Shown piece by piece: positions 43,533 to 60,623 of a DNA stretch of 64,000 nucleotides. The DNA comes from Natronosalvus caseinilyticus. Lineage in GTDB: Archaea; Halobacteriota; Halobacteria; Halobacteriales; Natrialbaceae. The notes under the pieces were generated by a model. The model was given only the letters and a program-made list of their open reading frames with translations. It made no database searches and had not been told where the DNA came from. The stretch is taken from contig NZ_CP071596.1 of the NCBI RefSeq assembly GCF_017357105.1, positions 1,302,001-1,366,000 on the forward strand. The letters run 5' to 3'. The first letter of the stretch is position 1, and each line of letters starts with the position of its first letter. A program made the position numbers and the translations under genes.

Positions 43533-44717
43533 TCATTGCGTGACCGACTGGAGTTCCGTCTCTGAAAGTACTTCACCGAGTACCGAATCAGTGTGCTGGC
43601 CAAGGTTTGGCACTGTCCGATCCATTCCCGTTGACAGTCCTGAGAAACCGATCGGCACGGTGACGAATGTCATCTCCGTCTCCCCGATCGTTTTATCGAG
43701 CGTATACGATGCTTGGCGAAGATGCGGATCTTCAAACACCTCGACAGTGTCCTTTACAGGGGCACCAGGTACGCCGTACTCTTGGAATCTATCAAACCAC
43801 GTTTCGGCCGACTCGGACTCGAGAGCATCTTCGATTACTTCGCCGAGTATGGATCGGTTTGCTAACCGATCTGAGTTGGTTCGGAACCGCGGGTCATCGA
43901 CGAGTTCTGGTTGTTCGATTGCCGCACAGAATCGTTCCCAGGAACGCTCGCTCCCAACTGCGACAGCGAGCCACCCGTCAGCGGTTTCTACGAGTCGGTA
44001 TGGGGCCAACGATGGGTGTTCGCTTCCGTTTCGTGGATATGGGCTTCCCGTTGCGAACGTTCGTCCAGCGCGTTCTGTAAGCCAGGATACGAGACCGCCG
44101 AACATCGGGACGCGAATGTGCTGTCCCCCGCAAGAATCACTGACCGAGAGGGCCGAGGTTAAACCTATAACTGCGTACATACCCGCACAGATATCCCCGA
44201 TTGGAATACCGGGTCTGACTGGTGGCCCATTCGCTTCGCCGGTGATACTCATGCTGCCACTGAGTGCCTGTACAACCATGTCGAATGCTGGGAGGTCCTC
44301 GTAGGGTCCGTCGAGAAAGCCGGTAATCGAGCAGTAGAGTAAATCGGGATTGACGGCTGAGAGCTCGTTGTATCCGAGACCCCATCGCTTCATCGTCTGG
44401 GGTTTGTGATTTTCGAGGAGGATGTCGGCGGATTCGACGAGGCGCTCGAGCGCGGCAGCGCCTTCGGGGCTCGAGCAGTCGAGTTCGACGCTCTTTTTGC
44501 CGCCGTTGAGAGAGGCGAAGTACGCCGTTACGTCGCCGTCGATTCTTGGGTCAATGTTTCTCGTAATATCTCCAACACCTGGCCGTTCGATCTTGATGAT
44601 TTCTGCGCCTAAATCGCCGAGGATCTGGCTGGCGAAGGGACCGGAGAGCATCTGAGTGCAGTCGACGACGCGCAGTCCCTCGAGCGGCATCGATTGCGTG
44701 TGGGAATCAGCAGGCAT
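43533..44717 (-). CDS. CaiB/BaiF CoA-transferase family protein (copy 1)
   Basis: The 394-residue class III CoA-transferase shows the family start LEGLRVVDCTQMLSGPFASQILGDLGAEIIKIERPGVGD, NGGKKSVELD, and the catalytic Asp146 in PAFDMVVQALSG followed by SITGEANGPPVRPGIP. Such enzymes move CoA from succinyl-, acetyl- or formyl-CoA to a carboxylic acid through an aspartyl-CoA anhydride. It lies 24 nt after the PEP mutase-family gene on the same strand. The acceptor acid is unknown; a dicarboxylate is likely from the neighbours. Confidence 0.92.
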   Translation of the reverse strand: MPADSHTQSMPLEGLRVVDCTQMLSGPFASQILGDLGAEIIKIERPGVGDITRNIDPRIDGDVTAYFASLNGGKKSVELDCSSPEGAAALERLVESADILLENHKPQTMKRWGLGYNELSAVNPDLLYCSITGFLDGPYEDLPAFDMVVQALSGSMSITGEANGPPVRPGIPIGDICAGMYAVIGLTSALSVSDSCGGQHIRVPMFGGLVSWLTERAGRTFATGSPYPRNGSEHPSLAPYRLVETADGWLAVAVGSERSWERFCAAIEQPELVDDPRFRTNSDRLANRSILGEVIEDALESESAETWFDRFQEYGVPGAPVKDTVEVFEDPHLRQASYTLDKTIGETEMTFVTVPIGFSGLSTGMDRTVPNLGQHTDSVLGEVLSETELQSVTQ

Positions 44718-44741: not shown

Positions 44742-45647
44742 TTACTTCTTCCCCGAGGCTGCTTCGATGTCGTAGTAGTCTGGAAGGCCGATGATCTCCT
44801 CGATGTACGTTCGAAGGTCGCCATACTCCTCGGGATTCCAGCCCGTCTCACCGTTGTCACGGATATTCTCATACAGCGCTTTCATGTGCTTCGTAATCAC
44901 CACGGGGGCCGCGGTCGGATAGATGACCATTCCATATCCCAATTCCTCTAACTCTTCGGTCGTGGGCCGTGGGTCGTAGTTGTCCGAAAGGACGAACGTC
45001 ATCGGTCCCTCTGCGTGGTCTGCGACGTACTCCATCTCTTCCCACGTGCGGGGAAAGAGCATCCCTACCTCTGCGCCAGCCCCGAGATACTCGTTGACGC
45101 GATTGACTGCATCCTCGATGGTTTCGCTTTCTCGACGATTACCTCGATTGGCATCCGATCGAGCGATGAGGACGATATCACCGTCCGCATCTCGTCGAGC
45201 ACGGTCGGCAACCTCGATTTTTGTTTTCATCGAGTCGATATCGGTGATATGGTGGCGTCCTTCGTGGTAGTGGAGGCGTTTCGGGTATACCTGATCCTCG
45301 ATGTGCATTCCGGCGATACCTGAATTGATGAAATGGTTGACCGTCCGGTGGGTGTGTGCCGGATCGCCGAAGCCAGCGTTGCCATCAACGACGAGCGGGA
45401 CGTCAACTGCATAGGTTATTTCCCGGGCACGGTCACTCATCTCGGTCATCGTGGCCATCGGTTCGGTGACGGCCGTCGCCGCGCCAGTCGCGTATCCGCC
45501 GAGATAGACGGTATCGAAGCCGACATCAGTCGCGATCGTCGCTGTTAGGGCGTCAACCGCGCCGGGAGCGACGACGAGGTCCTCGCTCAGGATCGCCTCA
45601 CGAAGCTGTTGGGCGTTTGATTTCGATGTCTCGGACACGTTTATCAC
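44742..45647 (-). CDS. Isocitrate lyase/PEP mutase-superfamily protein lacking the catalytic Cys
   Basis: The 301-residue alpha/beta-barrel has the family markers VAPGAVDALTATIA, YLGGYATG, VPLVVDGNAGFGD (Mg-binding region) and GMHIEDQVYPKR. Lyases of the methylisocitrate and 2,3-dimethylmalate type carry KRCGH; here the stretch reads KRLHYH, with Leu125 at the Cys position. It may be an oxaloacetate-decarboxylase-like or other non-lyase member, or cleave a malate-type acid by a different acid/base residue. The stop-start overlap with the Rieske gene (4 nt) shows coupling. The other copy in the island, at 56380, keeps the Cys. Confidence 0.86.
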   Translation of the reverse strand: MINVSETSKSNAQQLREAILSEDLVVAPGAVDALTATIATDVGFDTVYLGGYATGAATAVTEPMATMTEMSDRAREITYAVDVPLVVDGNAGFGDPAHTHRTVNHFINSGIAGMHIEDQVYPKRLHYHEGRHHITDIDSMKTKIEVADRARRDADGDIVLIARSDANRGNRRESETIEDAVNRVNEYLGAGAEVGMLFPRTWEEMEYVADHAEGPMTFVLSDNYDPRPTTEELEELGYGMVIYPTAAPVVITKHMKALYENIRDNGETGWNPEEYGDLRTYIEEIIGLPDYYDIEAASGKK

Positions 45648-46000
45648 CGGACCACGAATATCGACTCATTTTCGATTTCGACGTTGTACGTCGGTACTTT
45701 GTACTTCGAATTGTGGATATTCTCGCCGTTGGTTACATCGAACAGCCAGCCATGCCATGGGCACGTAATGTGTTTTTCGTCGTCATCATAGTTCCAATCC
45801 CACCCGTTGTCCTCTACATAGGTTTCACCAGTGAGTTTACCTTCACAGAGGGGGCCTGCCTGGTGGACGCAGTAATTCGCGATCGCGTGATACTCACCGT
45901 CGATCTGGAAGACGGCGATCTCTTGGCCGTTGATTTCGGTGATGACTCTCGATCCGTCAGTGAGTTCGTCAGTCGTGGCGACTTTGTGTTTGCTCGGCAT
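45644..46000 (-). CDS. Rieske [2Fe-2S] ferredoxin
   Basis: The 118-residue protein has both cluster-binding boxes: Cys44 and His46 in NYCVHQAGPLCEG, and Cys80 and His83 in ITCPWHGWLFDV. With no other domain, it is a soluble Rieske ferredoxin of the type that serves dioxygenases or other oxygenases. A loop of about 20 residues rich in Asp, Trp and Tyr (NGWDWNYDDD) precedes the second box. No oxygenase large subunit is present in the window. It may be an electron carrier for an enzyme elsewhere or a subunit of the amidohydrolase-linked reaction. It overlaps the lyase gene by 4 nt. Confidence 0.93.
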   Translation of the reverse strand: MPSKHKVATTDELTDGSRVITEINGQEIAVFQIDGEYHAIANYCVHQAGPLCEGKLTGETYVEDNGWDWNYDDDEKHITCPWHGWLFDVTNGENIHNSKYKVPTYNVEIENESIFVVR

Positions 46001-46045: not shown

Positions 46046-47173
46046 TTAAAGATCGAGTAACTCTCTTGCCGTTTCTCCCATGATATTTTCGACTGTCTCA
46101 CGATCGAAGTGTCCCCGAATGCGATTAAACAGCTCGCTCGGCGGGTCGAAGTCCGAGTGGGGCAAGTCAGAAGAGTACATGATGTTATTCGGCCCGGCCA
46201 TCTCGATTGCCATTGCGAGATGTCTCGGGTTATCTTCGGTATGACCGAGCGGTTGAGTCGTGAAGTATATCTGGTCGTGAATGTACTCACTCGGCATCTT
46301 CTCGAGAAGTGGGAGTTCGTAGTTCATCTCGAGGTAGTGGTCGTCCATCCGCCACATCAGGTAGGGAATCCAACCGACGCCCGACTCCTGGAAGACGAAG
46401 TCAAGGTCTGGAAACCGTTCCGGTGCGCCCTGAAAGATGAGCGACGAGAGGTTCCACATCTGGCTGAACGGATGGATGATTACGTGATCTTCGGTGTACG
46501 TCTGATTGTACATCCGCTGGAGGGGGAACACATGGCTGGTGTTCGTGGACGCACCGTGGAAGAACACGGGAAGGCCGTTGTCTTCCGCCGCCTGGTAGAT
46601 CGGATCATATCGATCGTGACCGGCCGGAGGGATGACGCCGGTCGATGGAAACGCGACGCCAACGATGTCTTTTTCGCCCGCCATTCGGTCGATCTCTTCG
46701 GCCATCATCTCGGGACGGTGGTGAGAGACGAGCAAATTCGCCTTGAGCCGGTGGTTGCCCTCGTCAAGGAAGTTATCGAGCAACCAGTTGTTGTATGCCT
46801 TTGTAAGTGCCACAGCGATTCGTTCGTTGTTCACTGTCGGTAACACGAGATTGAGGCCCGGATCGACGATTCCGTAATCGATGTTGAATTCGTCGAGTTC
46901 GTTGAGCTTTTTATCGACGGTGTTCGTATCGGCACTCCATCCACCCCGCTCAGCGTGAAGGCTCGGCGGCAACGAGTGGGTCAACGAGTAAATATCGCGC
47001 TCCGGATGTTCGGTCCGTTCAACGATCCACTTTGCTCCCTCGTATTGGTCGTCTATGTACGGAAGGAGATCGTCGATCGTCTCTCTGATATGGGCGTCGG
47101 TGTCGACGATTACGTCGAGTTCGTCTAGATTACGTATGCGTTGACTCTCGGCAGTGTTACTGGGTGACCCCAT
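46046..47173 (-). CDS. Amidohydrolase-2 family protein (ACMSD-like decarboxylase/hydrolase)
   Basis: The 375-residue metal-dependent TIM-barrel protein has VIVDTDAHIRE (Asp24, Asp26, His28) near the N-terminus, NLLVSHHRPEMM, GVAFPSTGVIPP, VFFHGAST, DHVIIHPFSQ and MYSSDLPHSDFDPP near the end. The amidohydrolase-2 group includes decarboxylases of aromatic or unsaturated acids (ACMSD, gamma-resorcylate and 5-carboxyvanillate enzymes) and 4-oxalomesaconate-type hydratases. The ATG at 47173 gives MGSPSNTAESQR; a longer frame has no family support. It heads the minus-strand run 47173-42247 (amidohydrolase, Rieske, lyase, CoA-transferase, MFS) and is divergent from the leuCD-like pair. Confidence 0.87.
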   Translation of the reverse strand: MGSPSNTAESQRIRNLDELDVIVDTDAHIRETIDDLLPYIDDQYEGAKWIVERTEHPERDIYSLTHSLPPSLHAERGGWSADTNTVDKKLNELDEFNIDYGIVDPGLNLVLPTVNNERIAVALTKAYNNWLLDNFLDEGNHRLKANLLVSHHRPEMMAEEIDRMAGEKDIVGVAFPSTGVIPPAGHDRYDPIYQAAEDNGLPVFFHGASTNTSHVFPLQRMYNQTYTEDHVIIHPFSQMWNLSSLIFQGAPERFPDLDFVFQESGVGWIPYLMWRMDDHYLEMNYELPLLEKMPSEYIHDQIYFTTQPLGHTEDNPRHLAMAIEMAGPNNIMYSSDLPHSDFDPPSELFNRIRGHFDRETVENIMGETARELLDL

Positions 47174-47353
47174 GTTTGGTACTCTAACCCATCCCTCGAT
47201 AGTCCTTATACTTTCTGGTGACAGCAGTCTGTTCGTGTTACTGCCAACGAACATTTTGAAGTAGTCTGTCACAATCGGCATTTTCAGACGAACTACACAA
47301 GTGTAAGGTTGCTAATAGATAACTATTTCCGGGACAAAGCCTACCGACTGCCT

Positions 47354-48607
47354 ATGGGGCAGACCATCGCCCAGAAGGTCATAGCCGACCATTCGGACGC
47401 GACAGACGTCGATCCAGGCGATCTCGTCGACGTCACACCCGATTGGATCCTGGCGAACGACCTCTCAATGTACCGCGGAATGGAACGAATGGATGACCTC
47501 GGATACGGACGGATCGCTGACCCGGATCGCGCGATTATTGCGTTTGATCATCACGTTCCCTCGAGCGATCCGACGATCACGACCCATATGAACGAGATGC
47601 GAAAGTGGCTCACCGAGCAAAACGTCGAGCACTTCTATGATTCGGGGGAGGGAATCCTTCACAACATCGTCGCAGAGAATGGGTACGCCCTACCTGGTCA
47701 ACTTATCATCGGATCGGATTCGCACACCACGACCCACGGAGCATTCGGAATGCTTTCGACCGGCATCTCTCATACCGACCTCGGACAGGCGCTGGGATCG
47801 GGCGAACTGTGGCTCAAGGTCCCGGAAACGCGCAGAGTAGTCGTCGACGAAGAACTTCCCGACGGAACTAGCGCTAAGGATCTCGGCCTCGCAATCATGG
47901 GGGAACTCACCGCCAGTAAGGCAATCTATGACACGATTGAATACTACGGCGCAGGAATAGAAGCTCTCCAGATGCACGAGCGACAGACGCTGACCAACTT
48001 TGCGGTCGAACTCGGTGCCCAGGCCGGAATCATTCCGGCTGACGATGTCACCGAATCCTACCTCAAGGGAAGAGCGCGAGAGTCATACGAACCGGTTGAA
48101 GCGGACGAGGACGCCGAGTATACGGCGACTCACGAACTCGAGGGTGGGGATATCGAGCCTCTCGTCGCAATGCCGTCGGCCGTCGACAACGTTGGAACGG
48201 TCGCGGAGAACGTCGGAACGACAGTCGATCAAGTGTTCGTCGGCACCTGCAATAACGGTCGGTTTGAAGATATCCAAGCGTTCGCCGACGTCCTGGGAAA
48301 CGATTCTGTCGCAAAGCACACCAAGTTGATCGTCGTTCCCGGCAGCAAGCAGGCCTACAAGCGAATGAACGAAGAAGGCATTACGAACCAGATTATGGAC
48401 GCTGGTGGCGTAGTTAACGCGCCCGGGTGCGGGCCCTGTTTCGGAGCTCACGGCGGTCTCCTCGGCGAGGGCGATACCTGCGTCGGAACGATGAACCGCA
48501 ACTTCCCTGGTCGAATGGGTCCAGGTGAAATTTATATTAGTAGCCCGGAAACGGCAGCAGCATCGGCAATGTACGGCGAAATCACCGATCCGAGGGAGGT
48601 GGTCTGA
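47354..48607 (+). CDS. Aconitase-family hydro-lyase large subunit (LeuC-like)
   Basis: The 417-residue protein begins MGQTIAQKVIADHS. It has the aconitase core with IIGSDSHTTTHGAFGMLSTGI and the three [4Fe-4S] ligands Cys299 (VGTCNNGRFED), Cys359 and Cys362 (PGCGPCFGAHGG). It is of the archaeal/isopropylmalate dehydratase LeuC2 type, which also includes homoaconitase, citraconate/methylitaconate-type and 2,3-dimethylmalate dehydratases. It overlaps the small subunit by one base. Its place in a catabolic island with two lyases argues for hydration or dehydration of a dicarboxylate in breakdown, not leucine synthesis. The exact substrate is not visible. Confidence 0.92.
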   Translation: MGQTIAQKVIADHSDATDVDPGDLVDVTPDWILANDLSMYRGMERMDDLGYGRIADPDRAIIAFDHHVPSSDPTITTHMNEMRKWLTEQNVEHFYDSGEGILHNIVAENGYALPGQLIIGSDSHTTTHGAFGMLSTGISHTDLGQALGSGELWLKVPETRRVVVDEELPDGTSAKDLGLAIMGELTASKAIYDTIEYYGAGIEALQMHERQTLTNFAVELGAQAGIIPADDVTESYLKGRARESYEPVEADEDAEYTATHELEGGDIEPLVAMPSAVDNVGTVAENVGTTVDQVFVGTCNNGRFEDIQAFADVLGNDSVAKHTKLIVVPGSKQAYKRMNEEGITNQIMDAGGVVNAPGCGPCFGAHGGLLGEGDTCVGTMNRNFPGRMGPGEIYISSPETAAASAMYGEITDPREVV

Positions 48608-49098
48608 TGCGGATCGAGGGACCTGCTCATGTGATCGGCGATGCGGTCGACACCGATCAAATTATCCCCGGAAAATACCTTCACCTGGACGATAAGAGCG
48701 ATTTTGGAGATCACGTGCTGGAGGGGTACGATCCGGGCCTTCCGAACCGTATCGAAACGGGCGATGTTATCGTCGCTGGAGAGAACCTCGGTCTCGGCTC
48801 CTCTCGCGAGGCCGCTCCGCTCGCGCTCAAATACGCAGGCGTTGGAGCTGTCATTGCCGAGTCATTCTCGCGGATCTTCTATCGAAACTGCATCAACGTC
48901 GGTCTACCTCTAGCAGAAGTTGACGACGTGACGTCATACGTCGATGACGGTGACGTCGTTGCTGTCGATCTTACGGAGGGAGAATTCACGCATGTCGATA
49001 GCGGAACGACGCTCCCCTCGGAGACGCTTCCCCCTAATCTTCAGGAGATACTCGATGCCGGTGGTCTCGTCGAATATCGAAAACAACAGATCGAATAG
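48607..49098 (+). CDS. Aconitase-family hydro-lyase small subunit (LeuD-like)
   Basis: The 163-residue swivel subunit has TDQIIPGKYLHLDD at 16-29 and LGLGSSREAAPLALK at 62-76. The usual motif is GSSREHAP; here the His is Ala69. This substrate-specificity region also differs between LeuD, homoaconitase and dimethylmalate/citraconate-type enzymes. ESFSRIFYRNCINVGLPL matches the conserved C-terminal part. It completes the heterodimeric hydro-lyase with the gene before it. Confidence 0.92.
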   Translation: MRIEGPAHVIGDAVDTDQIIPGKYLHLDDKSDFGDHVLEGYDPGLPNRIETGDVIVAGENLGLGSSREAAPLALKYAGVGAVIAESFSRIFYRNCINVGLPLAEVDDVTSYVDDGDVVAVDLTEGEFTHVDSGTTLPSETLPPNLQEILDAGGLVEYRKQQIE

Positions 49099-49809: not shown

Positions 49810-50580
49810 ATGGCGTCCAATACGGGGGAACGACGCGGGATCAAAGCCACCAAGACGACGTTCGATATCATCGAAACGATCCATGAGCGGGGACACATTC
49901 GTCTGGTCGAGCTCGCAAACGAAGTCGGTATCGCCAATAGCACGGCGTTCGACCATCTCGCCACGCTCAAGGAACTCGGATACGTTGTCGAGGACGACGA
50001 TGGATTCCGACTGGGACTAAAACTTCTCGACCACGGAATGCAGGCGAAGTATCACTACCGCGAGTTGCACGAAGCCGCCAAACCCGTCCTTGAGCAGCTG
50101 GTCAACGAGACCGACGAAGCCGTTAATTTAGTCGTGGAGGAACACGACTACGCCGTGTACATCGCGCGTCTTACCGGTGATCGGGGCGTCCCGACAAACT
50201 CATGGGTCGGAAAGCGGAAACAGATCCATACGCTTTCGGCGGGAAAGGCAATTCTCGCCCACCTTCCCGACGAACGGGTTGACGACCTGACGAGGCGAAC
50301 CGGTTTGGTGGGGGTAACGGACGACACCATCACCGCTCAGGACGAACTCAAAGATGAACTTGCAGACATTCGTCAGCGCGGGGTTGCGTTCAACAACCGT
50401 GAGTCACACGAAAGCATTCGGGCCGTCGGTGCCCCCATCATCCTGAATGATACCGTTCACGGAGCCGTTTCGGTCGCTGGTCCCGCCAGACGATTGACCG
50501 GTGAGTATTTCAGAACCGAGATCCCCGACCTCTTGCTCGGGGCAGTCAACGAAATCGAACTCAAACTCGCTTACCAGTAA
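49810..50580 (+). CDS. IclR-family transcriptional regulator
   Basis: The 256-residue protein has an N-terminal wHTH (residues ~10-65; TTFDIIETIHERGHIRLVELANEVGIANSTAFDHLATLKELG) and a C-terminal effector-binding GAF-like IclR domain (~75-250; ETDEAVNLVVEEHDYAVYIARL, LSAGKAILAHL, RQRGVAFNNRESHESIRAVGAPI). IclR proteins respond to small carboxylates or aromatics and act as repressors or activators of catabolic genes. It stands immediately before the gcdH-like operon and is likely to control the island; the effector is probably the substrate or a CoA derivative of it. Confidence 0.93.
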   Translation: MASNTGERRGIKATKTTFDIIETIHERGHIRLVELANEVGIANSTAFDHLATLKELGYVVEDDDGFRLGLKLLDHGMQAKYHYRELHEAAKPVLEQLVNETDEAVNLVVEEHDYAVYIARLTGDRGVPTNSWVGKRKQIHTLSAGKAILAHLPDERVDDLTRRTGLVGVTDDTITAQDELKDELADIRQRGVAFNNRESHESIRAVGAPIILNDTVHGAVSVAGPARRLTGEYFRTEIPDLLLGAVNEIELKLAYQ

Positions 50581-50805: not shown

Positions 50806-51969
50806 ATGCTCGACTTCGTAGAGTTAGAGGCAGGTCTGAATAGTGAAGAGCGTCTCATTCGCGATACTGCCCGTGAGTTCGTCGAGAAGGAAGTTGCGCC
50901 TGATATCGGCGACCACTTCGAGAACGGGACCTTCCCCACCGAGTTGATCCCTGAGATGGGTGAGATGGGCTTTTACGCGCCGAACCTCGAGGGGTACGGC
51001 TCTCCGAACGTCTCCGAAACGGCCTACGGGCTGTTGATGCAGGAACTCGAGGCCTGTGACTCTGGCCTGCGGTCGATGGCCTCGGTTCAGGGCGCCCTGG
51101 TCATGTATCCTATCCACGCCTACGGGAGCGAGGCCCAGAAGGAAGCGTGGCTCCCCAAACTCGGGGCGGGCGAGGCCGTCGGCTGTTTCGGCCTCACGGA
51201 GCCCGAACACGGCTCAAATCCGTCGGGGATGGAGACCCGCGCCGAGAAGGATGCCGACGGCTACGTGCTCAACGGCTCGAAGACTTGGATCACGAACTCC
51301 CCTATCGCCGACGTGGCGGTCGTCTGGGCGAAGGATCGATCGAGCGACAATACGGTTCGTGGATTCCTAGTCGAGACCGATCGCGACGGGGTGTCAACCA
51401 ACAAGATCACCGAGAAGCTCTCGCTTCGGGCGTCGATCACGGGCGAAATCGGCCTGAACGATGTACGCGTGCCCGAGGAGAACGTCCTTCCGGGGGTCGA
51501 AGGGATGAAAGGGCCGCTGTCGTGTCTGACTCAGGCCCGGTACGGTATCGCCTGGGGCGCGGTCGGCGCAGCACGAGACTGTTTCGAGACCGCACGCCAG
51601 TATGCCACCGACCGCGAGCAATTCGGAGGGCCGATCGGTCGCTTCCAGCTTCAGCAGGACAAGCTAGCGGAGATGGCGACCCAGATAACGCTAGCGCAGT
51701 TGCTGGCTCACCGCCTCGCCGAACTCAAAGAACGCGGCGACTTGCGCCCGCAGCACGTCTCGATGGCCAAACGCAACAACGTCCGGATGGCTCGCGAGCA
51801 GTCTCGCGTGGCTCGCGAAATGCTCGGGGGCAACGGCATCACGACAGACTACTCGCCGATGCGCCACCTCGCGAACATGGAAACGGTCTACACCTACGAG
51901 GGAACCCACGATATCCACACGCTCGTGCTGGGCCACGATCTGACCGGAATTCCCGCCTACGACCAGTAA
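50806..51969 (+). CDS. Glutaryl-CoA dehydrogenase-like acyl-CoA dehydrogenase
   Basis: The 387-residue flavoprotein closely follows the glutaryl-CoA dehydrogenase pattern: RSMASVQGALVMYPIHAYGSE, GCFGLTEPEHGSNPSGMETRA, LNGSKTWITNSPIADVAVVWAK, LSLRASITGEIGLNDVRVPEENVLP, TQARYGIAWGAVGAARDC, MLGGNGITTDYSPMRHLANME and YEGTHDIHTLVLG with Glu365, the catalytic base. The enzyme oxidises and decarboxylates glutaryl-CoA to crotonyl-CoA plus CO2, passing electrons to ETF. It is followed by an SUGCT-like CoA-transferase 8 nt later, the usual partner that makes glutaryl-CoA. Non-decarboxylating relatives exist, so substrate identity is probable, not proven. Confidence 0.9.
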   Translation: MLDFVELEAGLNSEERLIRDTAREFVEKEVAPDIGDHFENGTFPTELIPEMGEMGFYAPNLEGYGSPNVSETAYGLLMQELEACDSGLRSMASVQGALVMYPIHAYGSEAQKEAWLPKLGAGEAVGCFGLTEPEHGSNPSGMETRAEKDADGYVLNGSKTWITNSPIADVAVVWAKDRSSDNTVRGFLVETDRDGVSTNKITEKLSLRASITGEIGLNDVRVPEENVLPGVEGMKGPLSCLTQARYGIAWGAVGAARDCFETARQYATDREQFGGPIGRFQLQQDKLAEMATQITLAQLLAHRLAELKERGDLRPQHVSMAKRNNVRMAREQSRVAREMLGGNGITTDYSPMRHLANMETVYTYEGTHDIHTLVLGHDLTGIPAYDQ

Positions 51970-51977
51970 GCATACAC

Positions 51978-53210
51978 ATGGTTGGAGAAGCACGCGATCC
52001 AGATACGGAGACCGGTCCGCTTGAGGGCGTTACCGTCGTCGACGCCTCACAGGTGCTCGTCGGCCCGTTCTGTACGATGCAGTTGGGAGATCTCGGCGCG
52101 GACGTGATCAAGGTCGAACGACCCGAGGTAGGCGACCAGACCCGAGGTTGGTATCCCCCGACGTTCAACAAGGATGAAAAATCCCTCAGCGCCTACTACG
52201 CGAGCGTCAACCGTAACAAGCGATCAGTTACGGTAAATCTCAAGGACGAACGAGGGCGTGGGATCCTTCGCGATCTCGTGCGTGAGGCGGACGTGTTCGT
52301 GGAAAACTTTCGAGTCGGAACGACGGAGAAATGGGGCTTAGGATACGAAGATCTAGCCGCAGAGAATCCCGATCTCGTCTACTGTTCGCTTTCGGGATAC
52401 GGCGAATGGGGGCCTCACGCCGAACGACCGGCCTACGATTTAATCATGCAGGCTGAAAGCGGGCTGATGAGCATCACAGGAGAGGCCGACGGGAATCCCG
52501 TCCGAGTCGGTGTTGCCATTGCTGACATCGGGGCAGGGATGTACGCCACTCAGGCAATCTTGGCCGCCCTCTTCCGACGGGAGTTCGCTGACGCGGGCGG
52601 CCAGAAAATCGACGTCAGTCTGTTCGACGGCCAGCTCGCTTGGATGTCCTATATGGCCAGCTACTACTTTGCGACAGGAGAGTCACCGGAGAAGATGGGA
52701 TCGAGGCATCCGACTATCGTACCGTACCAGGCGTTTTCAACTCAAGATGGCCACGTCGTTGTAGCTGCTGCCTCCGAAAAAATTTGGCAAAACCTGTGTA
52801 ACGCTCTCGAACGGCCCGACTTACTCGATGACGAACGGTTCAGCCGAAACGCTGATCGAGTCGACAACCGCGAGGCACTCGAAGCGATTCTTGCGGCTGA
52901 AATCGAGCCATACGACACAGAGGACATCGTCGCAGTACTTGAAGCAGCGGATGTACCGGCGTCACCAGTCTACGACATTGCGGACGCGTTCGGGCATCCG
53001 CAAGCGAAAGCCCGTGGGATGAAAGCAACCGTCGACCATCCGCGCGCTGGGGCCGTCGAAATGCCGTCGAGTCCAATGCACCTTTCGGCAACACCGACCA
53101 CCGTCCGTCGACACCCACCGGATTTAGGCGAACACACCGCATCCGTCCTCTCGGAGCTAGGGTACGACGACGAAACGATACGCAAATTTGACAACAATGA
53201 TGTTATCTAG
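51978..53210 (+). CDS. CaiB/BaiF CoA-transferase (copy 2), SUGCT-like (succinyl-CoA:glutarate CoA-transferase)
   Basis: The 410-residue class III CoA-transferase has LEGVTVVDASQVLVGPFCTMQLGDLGADVIKVERPEVGD, SVNRNKRSVTVNLKDERG and catalytic Asp154 in PAYDLIMQAESGLMSITGEADG. Together with the adjacent glutaryl-CoA dehydrogenase this fits succinyl-CoA:glutarate (or other dicarboxylate) CoA-transferase. The ATG at 51978 is 8 nt after the dehydrogenase stop; an upstream frame overlaps that gene out of frame and is rejected. It differs from copy 1 at 43533, so two distinct acids may be activated. Confidence 0.88.
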   Translation: MVGEARDPDTETGPLEGVTVVDASQVLVGPFCTMQLGDLGADVIKVERPEVGDQTRGWYPPTFNKDEKSLSAYYASVNRNKRSVTVNLKDERGRGILRDLVREADVFVENFRVGTTEKWGLGYEDLAAENPDLVYCSLSGYGEWGPHAERPAYDLIMQAESGLMSITGEADGNPVRVGVAIADIGAGMYATQAILAALFRREFADAGGQKIDVSLFDGQLAWMSYMASYYFATGESPEKMGSRHPTIVPYQAFSTQDGHVVVAAASEKIWQNLCNALERPDLLDDERFSRNADRVDNREALEAILAAEIEPYDTEDIVAVLEAADVPASPVYDIADAFGHPQAKARGMKATVDHPRAGAVEMPSSPMHLSATPTTVRRHPPDLGEHTASVLSELGYDDETIRKFDNNDVI

Positions 53211-53296: not shown

Positions 53297-54463
53297 ATGT
53301 CTAAAACGCACGTGGCTGGGATTGGACTCACACCTTTCGGGGCCCACGAAGGGCGCTCCGGACGAGATCTATTCGCGGAGGCTGGGTTGGCTGCGCTCAA
53401 TGATGCCAATGTACATCCTAATGCAGTCGAGGAGGTCTATTACGGCAATTTCATCGGTGAACTCGCTGAAGGGCAGGGTCACCAGGGGCCGCTGATGGCC
53501 GACGCGATTGGCGTGACTGCACCGACAAGACGACTTGAGGGCGCGTGTGCATCGAGCGGCTTAGCTGTTCGCGACGCCGTTCGAGCGATCGAATCCGGCC
53601 AGACGGATGTCGCTATCGTCGGCGGGATGGAACGGCTGACCAACATGAGTACGACGGCAGTTACCAGCGGGTTAGCGACAGCCGCTGATGCGGCGTACGA
53701 AGGCCGAGCAGGTATCACGTTCCCAGGCGCGTATGCGTTGATGGCGAACGCCTACTTCAATCAATATGGTGGATCGAGAACCGATCTCGCCCATATCGCG
53801 GTCAAGAATCATGCGAATGCGACCACGAACCCACACGCCCACTTTCCACGTTCGATCACCATCGACGAGGCTCTCAATGCACCAATGGTTGCCTCACCAC
53901 TCGGACTGTATGACGCGTGTCCGATCAGCGATGGGGCTGCTGCCCTCGTTTTGACCAGCGAACGGTACGCTGAATCTCGAAGCCTCGAGACTCCAGTCGC
54001 GATCACCGGGTCCGGTGCCGGATCTGACCGACTTGCACTCCAGGATCGGTCCTCAATAACGTACACGCCGGCAACCGAAGAAGCAGCAACCGACGCGTAC
54101 GACGCCGCCGGAATTGACCCGAAAGACATCGACTTCGCGGAAGTCCACGACTGCTTTACCATCGCGGAGGTACTGGCTCTCGAATCGCTGGGGCTCGCCG
54201 AACGCGGTAACGGTATTCGACATGCTCGAGACGGCGTGACAACCCCAGACGGGCGAATCCCGGTTAATCTATCCGGCGGGCTGAAAGCAAAAGGTCATCC
54301 AGTCGGTGCAACGGGCGCTGCACAAGTCGCCGCGGTCACCGGGTTGCTATCGGGGTCACATCCCAACGCGTCGAAAGTACCAGACGCCACAGTCGGCATA
54401 GCTCACAACGCAGGCGGAACGGTCGCAAGCGCTACTGTCCACGTATTGGAGGTGATCAAATGA
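53297..54463 (+). CDS. SCP2-type thiolase
   Basis: The 388-residue thiolase starts MSKTHVAGIGLTPFG and has nucleophile Cys84 in LEGACASSGLAVRD, His284 in AEVHDCFTIAEVLALE and His334 in GLKAKGHPVGATGAAQ. Archaeal SCP2-type thiolases pair with an OB-fold DUF35 protein, here the next gene (4-nt overlap). It could make or split acetoacetyl-CoA or a beta-keto-dicarboxyl-CoA. In this island cleavage after crotonyl-CoA formation is the simplest reading, though the same family also works with HMG-CoA synthase in mevalonate synthesis; no synthase is present here. Confidence 0.93.
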   Translation: MSKTHVAGIGLTPFGAHEGRSGRDLFAEAGLAALNDANVHPNAVEEVYYGNFIGELAEGQGHQGPLMADAIGVTAPTRRLEGACASSGLAVRDAVRAIESGQTDVAIVGGMERLTNMSTTAVTSGLATAADAAYEGRAGITFPGAYALMANAYFNQYGGSRTDLAHIAVKNHANATTNPHAHFPRSITIDEALNAPMVASPLGLYDACPISDGAAALVLTSERYAESRSLETPVAITGSGAGSDRLALQDRSSITYTPATEEAATDAYDAAGIDPKDIDFAEVHDCFTIAEVLALESLGLAERGNGIRHARDGVTTPDGRIPVNLSGGLKAKGHPVGATGAAQVAAVTGLLSGSHPNASKVPDATVGIAHNAGGTVASATVHVLEVIK

Positions 54464-54849
54464 GTGCCGGAGGCAACGAGGATGTCCCGGAGTACAATGA
54501 CTTTCTTGAGGCGGTCGATGCGGGTGACCCCTTCGCACTCGTCTGCCCAAACGATCATCACTGGATCCCCCCGCGGCGTGTCTGTCCGTCCTGCGGGTCG
54601 ACGGAGCTCCGTCGTGAATCCGTACCGACCACCGGTTCCGTCGTGACGTACACTCGAATCGAGGTTCCGCCATCTGAGTTTGTCGATGATGTCCCGTATA
54701 CGACTGGTATTGCCTCGTTCGGGCCTGTCTCGATCACTGGTTTGTTACGAGGGGTCGATCCCGCTAATCTCGAGATAGGACAAACTGTGACGCTCTTACT
54801 CGAGCACACAGCTGCTGATGAGGAAGTCGTTACGTTTCGGCCGAAGTGA
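54460..54849 (+). CDS. Zn-ribbon OB-fold protein (DUF35), thiolase partner
   Basis: The 129-residue protein has a short N-terminal helix (NDFLEAVDAGD), a rubredoxin-like zinc ribbon (Cys29, Cys42, Cys45; LVCPNDHHWIPPRRVCPSCGS), then an OB fold (GSVVTYTRIEVPPSEF, ITGLLRGVDPANLEIGQTVTLLLE). The normal first pair CxxC is here CPNDHH, so His33 or His34 may replace one Cys as zinc ligand. DUF35 proteins dock acyl-CoA to the thiolase or join it to HMG-CoA synthase in archaeal three-part complexes. It overlaps the thiolase gene by 4 nt (ATGA). Confidence 0.9.
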   Translation: MSAGGNEDVPEYNDFLEAVDAGDPFALVCPNDHHWIPPRRVCPSCGSTELRRESVPTTGSVVTYTRIEVPPSEFVDDVPYTTGIASFGPVSITGLLRGVDPANLEIGQTVTLLLEHTAADEEVVTFRPK

Positions 54850-54977: not shown

Positions 54978-56372
54978 ATGCAGATCATGACCCCCGAGCG
55001 GGACCTCTGTACGTACTGTGCCGAACTCGAGTACACGCAACTTCCAGACGATGTGCAGAATTTGGCCGGTCAGTTTGTCCTGGATACCCTTGGAATCGCG
55101 ATCCGAGCGGCCGACAAAGATTCGAGCCGAGCCCTGACAGCTGGCGCAGACGACGTTCTAACCGGAACCCCGGAGTGTACCGTCTGGGCCACTGGCGACC
55201 GAGAGTCAGCCACGTACGCGGCGTTTGTGAACGCCTCGTTCGTTCACACGCTCGAACTCGACGACACCCATCGGGAAGCAGTGATTCATCCAGGAGCGCC
55301 TATCGTTCCGACTGCGTTCGCGATCGGCGAGCGCGAGGGAGCCACCGGCCACGACCTGCTCACAGCCGTCGTCGCTGGCTACGAGGTCGCTTGCCGACTG
55401 GGGATGGCTCTCAATAATCATCGCGTTCATCTCGAACGCGGATTTCATGGCACAGCGACGTGTGGCGTGTTCGGTGCGGCCGTCGCCGGGGGGTTACTCG
55501 CTGGTTTTGACGCGGACGAACTCGAGAACCTCCTCGGAATCACGCTCAGCCAGGCATCGGGTTCGCTGCAGTACAAAGCCAACGGCGCCTGGACCAAGCG
55601 GATTCATCCAGGACTGGCCGCACGAGACGCCGTACTCGCCGTGGCACTCGCAAAACAGGGGTTCAGAGGAGCGGCGGAACCGATTACCGGACGGCACGGC
55701 TTCCTCGAGATGTTCGGCGTTGATCCGGACGTAGAGCGGCTAACCGAAGGACTGGGCGACGACCACGAAATCCAGCGTACGGGGATCAAGCCGTATGCGT
55801 GCTGTCGGTACAACCACCCGGCGATTGACGCGACGCTCGAGGTGGTCATAGAACACGACATTGATCCGGAGGAGATTACGAATATTATGCTCGAAACGTT
55901 CGAAAGTGCATACGAACTGAGCCAGCCGGTGGAACGAAAAATACGCCCGGAGAACGTGGTCGATGCTCAGTTCAGTCCGCAGTACGCAGTCGCCGTCGCC
56001 GCAATCGACCGACAGGCGCTCGCATCGCAGTACACGCGTGAACGCCTCAATGATTCGGAGCTACGTTCGCTGTTAGAGCGGGTCACTGTTCGCGAAGCCG
56101 AATCGATGACCGAACACTTCCCGTCAGCCTGGCCAGCCCGGGTATCGGTTGAAACTAATCGCGGAACCTATACGGCCAGAGTCGATGGCCCCAGTGGCGA
56201 ACCGGAAGCGCGCCTGACCGAGACTGAAATGATCGAGAAGTTCCGATCCTTGACTGAACCACGAACCACAGCGACTGGGCAAGATGCCGTTGTTGAGGCG
56301 GTCCTTTCCCTCGAGTCACGCGACATCCGCGACGTGGCATCGACGATTGCGGGGGCGATCGATTCAAACTAA
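54978..56372 (+). CDS. MmgE/PrpD family protein
   Basis: The 464-residue all-helical family protein starts with YCAELEYTQLPDDVQNLAGQFVLDTLGIAI, followed by ASFVHTLELDDTHREAVIHPGAPIVPTAFAIGE, GTATCGVFGAAVAGG, GITLSQASGSLQYKANGAWTKRIHPGLAARD (a hallmark stretch), and YACCRYNHPAIDATLEV. The family includes 2-methylcitrate dehydratase, cis-aconitate decarboxylase and iminodisuccinate epimerase. It follows the thiolase/DUF35 pair by 128 nt on the same strand. The reaction could be dehydration of a methylcitrate- or malate-type acid, but no methylcitrate synthase is present. Confidence 0.9.
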   Translation: MQIMTPERDLCTYCAELEYTQLPDDVQNLAGQFVLDTLGIAIRAADKDSSRALTAGADDVLTGTPECTVWATGDRESATYAAFVNASFVHTLELDDTHREAVIHPGAPIVPTAFAIGEREGATGHDLLTAVVAGYEVACRLGMALNNHRVHLERGFHGTATCGVFGAAVAGGLLAGFDADELENLLGITLSQASGSLQYKANGAWTKRIHPGLAARDAVLAVALAKQGFRGAAEPITGRHGFLEMFGVDPDVERLTEGLGDDHEIQRTGIKPYACCRYNHPAIDATLEVVIEHDIDPEEITNIMLETFESAYELSQPVERKIRPENVVDAQFSPQYAVAVAAIDRQALASQYTRERLNDSELRSLLERVTVREAESMTEHFPSAWPARVSVETNRGTYTARVDGPSGEPEARLTETEMIEKFRSLTEPRTTATGQDAVVEAVLSLESRDIRDVASTIAGAIDSN

Positions 56373-56379
56373 CGCGGGG

Positions 56380-57312
56380 TCAATCCGTTATCGACTCGCC
56401 AAGTGTATCTTCGTATTTCTCCTGTTCCGTTTCGGGGAGGAATTGTTCCTCCCACTCGACGATCTGGGGGAACCCAGAAAACTCGTGAAGACCGCCGATC
56501 GGTAATTCATCCATCTCCTTGTAGACCTCGCCGACGGCATCAGTCCCCTCCGATTTCACCTTTACCGCTGCCTCGTACATCGAAATGATCGCCGTACGCG
56601 TACAGATTCCTGGATAGAGAAGAATGTCAAAGCCAGCTGACTCGAGTTCGTCTGCGTCCATCAGCGGCGAGATACCCGTACAGTTGTACAGGAGCGGGCC
56701 ATCAACGCCAGCGCCGACCTCCTCAACTTCGTCTGTGGTGGTCGGCCCCTCCACGAATGCGACGTCGGCGCCAGCGTCCAGAAACGCGTTCGCTCTGCTG
56801 ATTGCCTTCTTGACGGTCCCGTCGACGGCACCGAGCGCGTCGGTTCGAGCGATGATGACGAAGTCCTCGTCCCGTTCATCGCGAACGCTGGCGGCGGCTT
56901 CGACTTTTCCGACGGCTTCCTCCCTGCCGATCACCTGTCGCCCCTCGACGTGACCGCATCGTTTCGGAAACGTCTGGTCTTCAATCTGAATGCCGCCGAG
57001 GCCAGCGTTGATGTACTCCCTGACGGTCCGGATCGTATTGACCGCATTTCCGAAGCCGTTGTCCGCATCAGCGATCAGCGGCACATCGATCGTTTCCTGG
57101 ATATTTCTGGCATTACGGACCATCTCGGTCATCGTGATTAGTCCCGAATCGGGGTAACCAGTCGTCGACAGTGAGGTCCCGTAACCGGTCATGTAGGCCG
57201 CGTCGAACCCGACCTTGTCGATCACCCGTGCTGTCAACGGGTCGTGGGAGCCAGGACAGACGAGAATTTCGTCCTGTTCGAGTCGCTCTTTCAACTGCGT
57301 GCTGTAACGCAT
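56380..57312 (-). CDS. Isocitrate lyase/PEP mutase-superfamily lyase (methylisocitrate/dimethylmalate lyase-like)
   Basis: The 310-residue alpha/beta-barrel has YMTGYGTSLSTTGYPDSG, PLIADADNGFGNA (Mg site), GIQIEDQTFPKRCGHVEGRQVI with the full KRCGH motif at 117-121 (Cys119 catalytic), and ARTDALGAVDG. This pattern fits C-C lyases of the methylisocitrate and 2,3-dimethylmalate type, which release pyruvate from a C5-C7 di- or tricarboxylate. It converges on the MmgE/PrpD gene (7 nt between stops) and is divergent from tctC. Together with the LeuCD-like hydro-lyase it would give a hydratase-lyase route. Confidence 0.9.
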   Translation of the reverse strand: MRYSTQLKERLEQDEILVCPGSHDPLTARVIDKVGFDAAYMTGYGTSLSTTGYPDSGLITMTEMVRNARNIQETIDVPLIADADNGFGNAVNTIRTVREYINAGLGGIQIEDQTFPKRCGHVEGRQVIGREEAVGKVEAAASVRDERDEDFVIIARTDALGAVDGTVKKAISRANAFLDAGADVAFVEGPTTTDEVEEVGAGVDGPLLYNCTGISPLMDADELESAGFDILLYPGICTRTAIISMYEAAVKVKSEGTDAVGEVYKEMDELPIGGLHEFSGFPQIVEWEEQFLPETEQEKYEDTLGESITD

Positions 57313-57497: not shown

Positions 57498-58571
57498 ATG
57501 GATACGAATAGAAGAGAATTCGCGAAGAAGCTGGCGCTCGGCGGTGCGGGAATGTCACTGCTCGCAGGATGTCTCACCGACGATGGGGAAGGAAATGGGA
57601 ACGGAAACGGTAACGGAGGTAATGGAAACGGCAACGGAGGTAACGGGAACGGAAACGGAGGTAACGGGAACGGAAACGGTGGTGACGACTTCCCGGATGA
57701 AACGATCACACTCGTCGTGCCTGGAAGTGCTGGCGGAGGGACCGACACCTACTCTCGCGAACTCGGCCCGGCCCTAGGTGATGCACTCGGGGTTCCCGTC
57801 CAGATCGATAACCGGCCCGGTGGCAACCAGCTCATCGGCCCCGGTCACGTTGCGAATCAGGAAGCTGACGGCTACACAATCGCCGTCGTTAATCTCCCTG
57901 CCGTGCCCGCTGGCTGGCTAATCGAAGAGCCCGATTTCGACCTTCGGTCGTTTGAAGGTCTCGGTGGGTTCGCCGGTGAAGGCGCCGTCATGGTCGTCAA
58001 CAACGACTACGCAGATTGGGAGCCCGAAGAAGTCCTCGAGGCCTATCGAACCGGTGAGTTCTCGAATATCGGTGTCGTCCACCTGGGCAGTTTCCACATG
58101 ATGGGCGCCGTACTCGAATCGGAGGATTACTTCGACGTCTCCTTCGAGTGGGTCGGCTACCCGGACGCGGCCGAACACAATCGTGCGGTCGCTTCTGGTG
58201 AAATTCCGGCAGCGTTCTCTTCAGAAGCAGGAGCGAGTCAGCTTGTCAATGAGGGCGAGGTAACCCCGATGTTCACGACGAACGAGACGGACCTTTACGA
58301 TGTCCCTACTATCGAAGATATGGGTTACCCGCCGGCGGACTTCATCTCCCAGAGCCGGGGTTTCACCGTACTCGAGGACGTTCCGGACAACCGAAAGGAC
58401 ATCCTTGCCGACGGAATGGAAGAAGCGGTGACCAGTGATAGCGTTCAGGACTGGGCGGAATCGACCGGCCAGAACGTCTTCTACACCCCGCGCGAGGAGT
58501 TCGACGAGAACTTCCACCGGATCATTGACGAACTGCCGGATCTCATCGACCTCGATCAGTTCTCGGGATAA
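57498..58571 (+). CDS. tctC: Tripartite tricarboxylate transporter substrate-binding protein TctC
   Basis: The 357-residue protein has a Tat signal (Arg5-Arg6 in NRREFAKKL), lipobox LLAGC with Cys25, and a Gly-Asn linker (~32-62) as in the livK product. The Bug/TctC fold follows: ETITLVVPGSAGGGTDTYSRELGPALG, VPVQIDNRPGGNQLIGPGHVANQEADGYTIAV, and a C-terminal domain ending in FHRIIDELPDLIDL. TctC binds citrate, other tri- or dicarboxylates or small aromatics outside the cell and hands them to TctAB. It starts a three-gene operon and is the likely intake of the island's substrate. Confidence 0.93.
   Translation: MDTNRREFAKKLALGGAGMSLLAGCLTDDGEGNGNGNGNGGNGNGNGGNGNGNGGNGNGNGGDDFPDETITLVVPGSAGGGTDTYSRELGPALGDALGVPVQIDNRPGGNQLIGPGHVANQEADGYTIAVVNLPAVPAGWLIEEPDFDLRSFEGLGGFAGEGAVMVVNNDYADWEPEEVLEAYRTGEFSNIGVVHLGSFHMMGAVLESEDYFDVSFEWVGYPDAAEHNRAVASGEIPAAFSSEAGASQLVNEGEVTPMFTTNETDLYDVPTIEDMGYPPADFISQSRGFTVLEDVPDNRKDILADGMEEAVTSDSVQDWAESTGQNVFYTPREEFDENFHRIIDELPDLIDLDQFSG
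57590..57681. repeat. Gly-Asn coding repeat in tctC
   Basis: Tandem 12- and 15-nt units built on GGAAACGG/GGTAACGG encode Gly-Asn runs in the linker after the lipid anchor. The DNA resembles the livK repeat (30290-30365) and may have spread by gene conversion or arisen independently. Confidence 0.7.
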
Positions 58572-58602
58572 AAAACGAATAATAGCAGCAGGCCACTAAC
58601 CA

Positions 58603-59142
58603 ATGAAATCATCTCTAAATCGACTACGGGTAATCGACGGCGAGACAGTGTTCACGGGGATTCTCCTCGTTATTGCAGTGTACATGTTCGTCGAAGCTGC
58701 GACGTTTTCCTCTCGGGCAGCGACGTTTCCCCGAGCGATATCGGGGGCTGCAATAGTTGGGTGCGTACTGCTGCTGATTTCACCGTTTCTTCCCGGCCCG
58801 ATTCGATCGTTCGTCGAAGAGGACGCACGAATCGTTAAACAGGACGATGCCACAGCTAAAGCGGACGAGACGCCAGCCGACAGTGATCCTGAAGAGTCCG
58901 AGCTCAAACCGATCAATAGCGCCTATACAGCGCTGATGATCGGGGGATACGTGATCGTTGCGTATCTCGCCGGGTTCTTTGTCGCAACACCGCTGTTCGT
59001 CCTCGCGTACATATTTGTGTTCGACATTAATCGTCTGTACGGTTCGATGATCCTTATCGCGAGCGTTCTCGTGATAGCTGGACTCGAAAGAGCACTTAAT
59101 GCACCGTTGGACGAGGGACTCATCTTCACGGTGGGATTCTAA
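58603..59142 (+). CDS. tctB: Tripartite tricarboxylate transporter small membrane subunit TctB
   Basis: The 179-residue protein has about four membrane helices: ~16-31, ~42-62, ~109-128 (IGGYVIVAYLAGFFVATPLF) and ~146-162 (SMILIASVLVIAGLERAL). An acidic cytoplasmic loop rich in Asp/Glu and Ala (78-100) separates the second and third helices. This is the TctB shape. Its stop overlaps the tctA start (TAATG), so the two are coupled. TctB supports TctA, but its exact task is unknown. Confidence 0.87.
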   Translation: MKSSLNRLRVIDGETVFTGILLVIAVYMFVEAATFSSRAATFPRAISGAAIVGCVLLLISPFLPGPIRSFVEEDARIVKQDDATAKADETPADSDPEESELKPINSAYTALMIGGYVIVAYLAGFFVATPLFVLAYIFVFDINRLYGSMILIASVLVIAGLERALNAPLDEGLIFTVGF

Positions 59143-60623
59143 TGTACGACGCATTCCTCGAGGCGCTCTGGTACGTCCTCTCCGTCGAGACGTTACTGTG
59201 GATCCTGATGGGATTCTGTTTCGGCGTCATCCTCGGTGCAATTCCGGGCGTCGGAACAGCCGTCGGCATGGCACTCGTCTTGCCGCTCACAATCTTCGTT
59301 GATGGAACGACTGCCGTAATCCTCTTGACCTGTATCTACATGGGTGGGATGTACGGCGGGAGTATCTCCGCAATCCTGCTCAACGTTCCGGGGACAGCAG
59401 GTTCGGCAGCGACGACGTTCGACGGGTACCCAATGTCCCGAAAAGGACAGGCGGTCACCGCACTTTCGATTTCGGCTGCCTCGTCCGCAATTGGTGGACT
59501 GATCTCCGTGATCATCCTGTTTTTGATCACCCCATTTATTATCGAACTAGTCCTGTTGTTCAATTCACCAGACCTCTTCCTTGTCGCCTTGCTCGGGTTA
59601 GCGATGATTACCGTTGTCTCACGAGGTTCAATGGTGAAAGGGTTGACCATTGGTATGTTCGGCCTGCTGTTTTCGACCGTTGGTGTTTCACCAACTGCTC
59701 CTGACGTCCGGTATAACTTCGACAGCGTCCTGTTGTACGACGGTCTAAACATCGTCGCCGCATTACTCGGTCTGTTTGCGATCAGCGAGATGATCAAACT
59801 CGCCGCGGAACGAGGCGGAATCGCCAAATCCGACACCGAACTATCTGGGAGCGTCGCCGAAGGCATTGCCTTCACCATCTACCACCCGTGGTACGTGATC
59901 AAATCAAGTTTGATCGGCACGATCATTGGAGCGCTCCCAGGAGCCGGTTCGTCGATGGCGAACTTCGTTGCCTACAGCGAGGCGATGCGTTCGTCGGGCA
60001 TGGCTGATTCGTTCGGAAAGGGCGACAAACGCGGTGTTCTCGCGTCAGAGGCCTCGAATAACTCAGCCGTGGGTGGTGCACTCATCCCAACACTTTCGTT
60101 CGGTATTCCCGGAAGCGCGTCAACGGCCATCCTCCTCGGCGGGTTCCTCATGCACGGTCTGAACCCCGGCCCCTCGCTGTTCGGGTCGAATCTCAATATT
60201 ACCTTCAGTATCTACCTGGCCGTCGCGATTGGTGTTATCGTACTAATCCCGCTTCTCGGATTACTCGTAATCACCCAACTCGGTCACTTGACGAAGGTCA
60301 ACACCGATTACATCATCCCGATTATCGTCGTTCTCTCGATGGCGGGAATCTACACGTCCAACATCAGCTGGATTGATGTACTCACCGTCTTTCTCCTCGG
60401 AATTGGGGGCTATTACATGCGAAAGTATGACTTCTCCATCGTCGCCTTCTTGCTCGGAGCAATCCTGGGCCGAATGGCCGAAGAGAACCTCTTTCGCTCT
60501 CTGCAGATTTCAGGGGGATCGTACGAAATCTTCGTCGAAAGCCCACTCTCAATCGCGATCATCGTCATCACGTTGCTCATCGTCCTCTCACCACAGCTGC
60601 AAAAAATACGCGGGTTGGCGTGA
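59142..60623 (+). CDS. tctA: Tripartite tricarboxylate transporter large permease TctA
   Basis: The 493-residue permease has about twelve helices and the TctA signatures GFCFGVILGAIPGVGTAVGMAL near the N-terminus, YMGGMYGGSISAILLNVPGT, and a second inverted copy GTIIGALPGAGSSMANFVAY followed by ASNNSAVGGALIPTLSFGIPGS. These repeats form the substrate pore, driven by an ion gradient (sodium in known systems, apt for a halophile). With TctC and TctB it forms a complete secondary uptake system. Confidence 0.93.
   Translation: MYDAFLEALWYVLSVETLLWILMGFCFGVILGAIPGVGTAVGMALVLPLTIFVDGTTAVILLTCIYMGGMYGGSISAILLNVPGTAGSAATTFDGYPMSRKGQAVTALSISAASSAIGGLISVIILFLITPFIIELVLLFNSPDLFLVALLGLAMITVVSRGSMVKGLTIGMFGLLFSTVGVSPTAPDVRYNFDSVLLYDGLNIVAALLGLFAISEMIKLAAERGGIAKSDTELSGSVAEGIAFTIYHPWYVIKSSLIGTIIGALPGAGSSMANFVAYSEAMRSSGMADSFGKGDKRGVLASEASNNSAVGGALIPTLSFGIPGSASTAILLGGFLMHGLNPGPSLFGSNLNITFSIYLAVAIGVIVLIPLLGLLVITQLGHLTKVNTDYIIPIIVVLSMAGIYTSNISWIDVLTVFLLGIGGYYMRKYDFSIVAFLLGAILGRMAEENLFRSLQISGGSYEIFVESPLSIAIIVITLLIVLSPQLQKIRGLA

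Follow-up and report, generated by a model that had tools for sequence, protein, structure and literature searches.

LeuCD-family genes are easily annotated as leucine synthesis, and two kinds of described system lie closest to the pair that we analyzed in the window (the whole 64,000-nt stretch of haloarchaeal DNA). The best solved matches of both window subunits are archaeal isopropylmalate/citramalate isomerase (IPMI) and methanogen homoaconitase (HACN) (4nqy/4kp1, 4kp2, 3vba, 2pkp), but the window pair stands apart from these in the tree, and its small subunit carries the loop YLHL where theirs read YLVY and YLRT. The other system is the hydratase DmdAB with dimethylmalate lyase of nicotinate fermentation, which resembles the window in having a LeuCD-type heterodimer and a PEP-mutase/isocitrate-lyase (ICL)-family lyase in one cluster.

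A class-wide search found PrpF in 7 of 391 genomes and gave two loci for comparison, L163 and L164. L163 holds LeuCD-type genes, a PEP-mutase-family lyase, MutL, PrpF, a B12-binding protein, an amidohydrolase, and molybdenum-hydroxylase subunits, a layout that we take to be a nicotinate fermentation cluster. L164 holds LeuCD, a PEPM-family gene, PrpF, and PrpD. The hydratase-lyase pairing thus recurs in a nicotinate-type cluster and in L164. The DmdA and DmdB names of the L163 reference rest on gene context, and NCBIfam places even these proteins above its 3-isopropylmalate dehydratase cut-offs (LEU2, 717 vs 611; leud, 263 vs 246). Compared with this reference, the window proteins are 36% (LeuC), 42% (LeuD), and 44% (the lyase candidate PEPM2) identical. 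The window LeuC differs in falling into a clade of its own in the best tree, the window LeuD reads YLHL and GSSREA where the DmdB reference reads FLNT and GSSREH, and the window neighbors are CoA enzymes, a transporter, and a predicted oxygenase. The first PrpF search, which covered 22 genomes reached through loci, had given 10 stretches, in which PEPM2 had no match at E ≤ 1e-5. We note that our literature search found no source naming this locus; subscription papers lay mostly outside its reach, so absence is unproven.

The LeuCD pair and the leucine gene set

The pair consists of two genes, both placed by NCBIfam, Pfam, and aligned columns, LeuC also by the tree and LeuD also by loop and motif:

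47354-48607, plus strand: LeuC-like large subunit, 417 aa
48607-49098, plus strand: LeuD-like small subunit, 163 aa, loop YLHL, motif GSSREA

LeuC and LeuD share one base at their junction (TGATG). LeuC scores 449 bits (cut-off 410) against TIGR02086, the NCBIfam subfamily of archaeal LeuC/homoaconitase large subunits, and LeuD scores 188 bits (cut-off 109) against TIGR02087, the NCBIfam LeuD/DmdB subfamily; each falls below the NCBIfam equivalog cut-offs listed. The Pfam scores, 296 bits for PF00330 in LeuC and 63 bits for PF00694 in LeuD, both exceed their cut-offs. Separate subunit genes above family cut-offs, three Fe-S cysteines, and the DSH and NRN motifs identify an aconitase-family heterodimeric hydro-lyase. 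The coupled heterodimer noticed in the first-pass annotation is therefore real, with overlapping genes that both score above family cut-offs.

That annotation had also seen no leucine-synthesis gene next to the pair and had suggested looking for a separate leuCD with leuA and leuB. Both points were borne out. No leucine-synthesis gene was found among the 18 translated neighbors at 40999-61186 (the last, a Usp-like ORF, named by eye). The 4.2-Mb host genome has six PF00330 matches in four places, and a second LeuC elsewhere in it scores 719 bits against a curated cut-off of 510, its LeuD also being above cut-off. Within the same 16 kb lie a ketol-acid reductoisomerase (ilvC-like), a LeuA-like gene, and a LeuB-family gene, the last two scoring under their subfamily cut-offs. 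Because this other leuCD sits beside leucine genes and the two LeuC proteins are 32% identical, we conclude that the window pair is not the leucine enzyme, and a role as biosynthetic isopropylmalate isomerase was rejected. The window LeuC is 37% identical to the aconitase-like protein of L009. LeuCD is probably a catabolic paralogue, which would hydrate a small, branched, unsaturated acid for a nearby enzyme to split.

The five-genome clade and its active-site residues

Among 292 Halobacteria genomes, LeuC matches at E ≤ 1e-100 occur in 31, and identity to the window LeuC is at least 60% in only four, its own included (own 100%, G282 86%, G265 61%, and G039 60%); the remaining matches among those listed are 41-45% identical. 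In a scan of public genomes, a relative was encoded in 464 of 493 stretches. Two of the best 80 of these 464 belong to the window group, L053, which we counted as the same record as G282, and L054 (58%); after them the score ranking continues with a match of 44% identity.

We built a maximum-likelihood tree of 74 rows: the window LeuC, 71 of 138 different LeuC rows, and two solved sequences. The bacterial-type LeuC of the window's genome is not one of the 74. The window, G282, G265, G039, and L054 form a clade with support of 100/100 on a long stem (1.1 changes per column), and the best tree places it apart from MJ IPMI, MJ HACN, and the DmdA reference of L163. Grouping of the clade with nine rows of a 43% haloarchaeal class has support of 69/93. 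As judged from sequence, the separation of these five haloarchaeal genomes as a group is new, with the deep branching order left loose by the tree.

The first-pass annotation had proposed such a large-subunit phylogeny and had named, as the outcome that would count against it, clustering with biosynthetic leuCD in a genome with no other leuCD. This was not the outcome: a second leuCD exists, and in the best tree the window LeuC separates from the solved archaeal isopropylmalate isomerase, from homoaconitase, and from DmdA. A union of the clade with DmdA plus L164 was not rejected (AU p 0.265, with one DmdA reference and one relative). The proposed analogy to a DmdA-like hydratase is compatible with that p value but sits less easily with the 36% identity to the nicotinate-cluster DmdA and with the clade of its own.

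Residues were counted from aligned columns of 141 LeuC and 150 LeuD rows. All 141 LeuC rows retain the three Fe-S cysteines, DSH, and R382/N383. Directly after the first Fe-S cysteine, position 300 is Asn in 5/5 clade rows; the 136 non-clade rows have Thr (133), Ser (2), or Ala (1). At position 79 the clade has Met, where the other rows mostly have His (101) or Gln (25). In LeuD, position 69 (the last of GSSREx) is Ala in all nine clade rows, which represent the five genomes, while the 141 non-clade rows have His (78), Gln (55), Thr (6), Glu (1), or Ser (1). Position 26 is polar, H or N. The LeuD loop, which we take to be a determinant of substrate specificity, reads YLHL in the window and G282 and YLNT in G265, G039, and L054, compared with YLVY in MJ IPMI, YLRT in MJ HACN, and FLNT in the DmdB reference. 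YLRT, presumably a homoaconitase trait of the small subunit, is absent from the window LeuD, which has YLHL instead. Taken from the alignments, the clade alters positions that are conserved elsewhere while the checked catalytic residues stay.

The genes around the 43% LeuCD class (L042 and L044-L052; 10 haloarchaeal genomes) were also recorded. CaiB, HMG-CoA-lyase-like, isochorismatase-family, and hydantoinase-like genes occur in 10/10 stretches, a luciferase-type (F420-like) oxidoreductase in 9/10, and a flavocytochrome-like gene at at least 67% in 8/10. This group has the look of a pathway that takes a cyclic imide or amide to a substituted maleate.

Neighboring genes, the lyase candidates, and a proposed pathway

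The following genes surround the pair:

43533-44717, minus strand: CaiB1, class III CoA-transferase (profile match)
44742-45647, minus strand: PEPM1, PEP-mutase/ICL-family protein with PKRLHY and without the lyase cysteine, probably no C-C lyase (motifs)
45644-46000, minus strand: Rieske ferredoxin, 118 aa, C-x-H...C-x2-H (motif)
46046-47281, minus strand: Amidohydro_2 protein, probable amidohydrolase-related dinuclear oxygenase; true start maybe near 47182
49810-50580, plus strand: IclR-family regulator (profile match)
50812-51969, plus strand: glutaryl-CoA-dehydrogenase-family protein (440 bits to 2eba)
51972-53210, plus strand: CaiB2, class III CoA-transferase, scoring best against the NCBIfam model for succinate--glutarate CoA-transferase (387 bits, under the cut-off of 750)
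53297-54463, plus strand: thiolase-domain protein (profile match)
54460-54849, plus strand: OB-fold partner protein (PF01796)
54978-56372, plus strand: MmgE/PrpD-family protein, far under PrpD equivalog cut-offs
56380-57312, minus strand: PEPM2, PEP-mutase/ICL-family protein with the PKRCGH lyase motif, proposed partner lyase (PF13714, motifs)
57498-60623, plus strand: tripartite tricarboxylate transporter TctC, TctB, and TctA (profile matches)

The minus-strand group runs divergently from LeuC, about 171 bases away, in the order Amidohydro_2 protein, Rieske ferredoxin, PEPM1, CaiB1, and then an MFS transporter; with the chosen starts, the gaps between the first four are 45, 5, and 24 bases. 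On the plus strand, the glutaryl-CoA dehydrogenase hints at a C5 acid among the products. This link to glutarate is weakened because 245 of 292 haloarchaeal genomes have such matches and because the window copy has a 96% identical twin in the same genome (G000:C1:3974893-3976056); it is perhaps a recent duplicate drawn into the cluster.

The whole genome has three PF13714 matches; PEPM1 and PEPM2 are the two above cut-off, and the third is below. PEPM1 lies 1.7 kb from the LeuCD pair and PEPM2 7.3 kb, with other genes between PEPM2 and LeuD. Lyases of the family carry K[KR]CGH, which we take to be the catalytic loop with its catalytic Cys, and most members carry DxDTGxG, an acidic motif that is presumably the metal site. 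PEPM2 has both (PKRCGH and DADNGFG, with Asn for the usual Thr) as well as ARTDA. PEPM1 reads PKRLHY, DGNAGFG, and ARSDA, and was rejected as a second lyase for want of the catalytic cysteine. Because of these PEPM1 motifs, only PEPM2 of the two looks like an active C-C lyase. The two PEP mutase-family lyases of the first-pass annotation do flank the pair as family members, but only one keeps lyase residues.

The best solved match of PEPM2 is dimethylmalate lyase (167 bits); the next matches, at 165, 164, and 159 bits, have other functions, and the match therefore names no substrate. A PEPM/ICL-family gene is found in the LeuCD neighborhood of 5/5 clade genomes. G282 shows the same arrangement as the window, and G265, G039, and L054 each have a PEPM gene that carries K-R-C-G-H and whose end lies 30, 3, and 9 bases, respectively, from LeuD. 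These three adjacent lyases form one subfamily, different from PEPM2. Another 18 haloarchaeal genomes contain members of the PEPM2 group at 56-63% identity, and PEPM2 may serve another substrate, because its relatives are mostly without LeuC and beside isochorismatase-family genes: none of the 14 stretches read (of 18) has LeuC at E ≤ 1e-12, and an isochorismatase-family gene adjoins the relative in 11 of the 14 (L205-L218, e.g., L208:3391-8965). The hydratase-lyase logic suggested in the first pass is thus partly supported, with one lyase: the separate paralogue and the PEPM-family gene throughout the clade speak for it, but the PEPM2 subfamily differs from that of the sister genomes and its relatives lack LeuC. 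Apart from this, one stretch was checked with Pfam, and there hydantoinase A and B lie upstream of the PEPM2 relative.

The best-supported account, at roughly even odds (about 0.5), is that LeuCD would act as a catabolic [4Fe-4S] hydratase feeding an isocitrate-lyase-type cleavage by PEPM2. We infer the reaction direction, the coupling to PEPM2, and the products. The tripartite transporter would import the substrate, LeuCD would hydrate a maleate-type acid, either 2-substituted or 2,3-disubstituted, yielding a substituted malate, and PEPM2 would cleave the C2-C3 bond of this malate to release a plain carboxylic acid and a 2-oxoacid (pyruvate or glyoxylate). The carboxylic acid would pass to the nearby CoA-transferases, acyl-CoA dehydrogenases, and thiolase. 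The clade, set apart by residues and neighborhood, offers a directly testable archaeal hydratase-lyase pair. Should LeuCD act on a substituted maleate, this would point to a pathway by which branched or imide-derived acids are catabolized in salt lakes.

Other readings divert the LeuCD product or change its identity. The hydroxy-diacid could instead be made into a CoA ester by CaiB1 or CaiB2 and then cleaved or oxidized, with PEPM2 belonging to a separate amide- or imide-derived pathway and lying close by chance. We consider this unlikely: CaiB with an HMG-CoA-lyase-like gene in 10/10 stretches of the 43% class and the isochorismatase-family genes beside PEPM2 relatives in 11/14 stretches point to it, but both PF00682 matches of the genome lie outside the window, and in the sister genomes a PEPM gene immediately adjoins LeuCD. 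The convergence of the PrpD-like gene and PEPM2, 7 bases apart, brings to mind a methylcitrate-type route, in which the PrpD-like protein would dehydrate a 2-methylcitrate-like acid, LeuCD would rehydrate it, and PEPM2 would release pyruvate and succinate or a homologue. PrpB is indeed the best NCBIfam model of PEPM2, but at 235 bits against a cut-off of 354, the PrpD-like protein misses the PrpD cut-offs by far (51.5 vs 950 and 27.6 vs 575), and the genome's single citrate synthase match is far from the window, with no second one found in the genome; this route is disfavored as quite improbable. That LeuCD is strictly a dimethylmaleate hydratase, its substrate being 2,3-dimethylmaleate and PEPM2 serving as the dimethylmalate lyase, strikes us as very unlikely. 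The unrejected union with DmdA (p 0.265), the resemblance of the sister YLNT loops to the FLNT of DmdB, and the top solved match of PEPM2 (167 bits, with other functions at 165, 164, and 159) favor it; DmdA's position elsewhere in the best tree and the window's YLHL count against it, and the PrpF, MutL, and B12-mutase genes of L163 were not seen among the window cluster genes examined.

A long shot is that the clade hydrates a homoaconitate-type substituted-maleate tricarboxylate such as 2-methyl-3-(2-carboxyethyl)maleate, which is ring-opened hematinic acid, from chlorophyll or haem breakdown. PEPM would then yield pyruvate and glutarate, the latter taken by CaiB2 and glutaryl-CoA dehydrogenase, and an undescribed archaeal route for tetrapyrrole-derived acids would follow. 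The hints are the polar LeuD position 26 (H/N), the tripartite tricarboxylate transporter, a glutaryl-CoA dehydrogenase and CaiB2-type gene in the G265 LeuCD cluster, and hydantoinase-type cyclic-amide hydrolase genes near LeuCD in three sister genomes; against them stand the absence of such a hydrolase among the window cluster genes examined and the spread of glutaryl-CoA dehydrogenase through 245 of 292 haloarchaeal genomes. We give hardly any credence to the idea that the pair is a surplus isomerase for the biosynthesis of leucine, or of isoleucine via citramalate: family membership speaks for it, but the separate leu gene set, the 32% identity, the catabolic neighbors, and the changed conserved residues all speak against it.

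A predicted dinuclear oxygenase beside the pair

The Amidohydro_2 protein matches 8sm7 (175 bits) and also the 6m1w chains. PMC10811679 describes amidohydrolase-related dinuclear oxygenases that were found through adjacent Rieske genes, and the metal ligands of AibH2 are named in PMC7782822. By motif and alignment to 8sm7, the matching residues in the window protein are D62, H64, H242, E299, D372, H375, and D377. Six metal ligands, an acidic second-shell residue, and an adjacent Rieske gene are thus present by motif, suggesting that 46046-47281 probably encodes an archaeal amidohydrolase-related dinuclear oxygenase. It shares its ligand pattern and neighboring Rieske ferredoxin with AibH2, SfbO, and PtmU3 but differs from them in sitting in an archaeal organic-acid cluster. 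Of 292 haloarchaea, 40 have a relative of this protein at E ≤ 1e-60.
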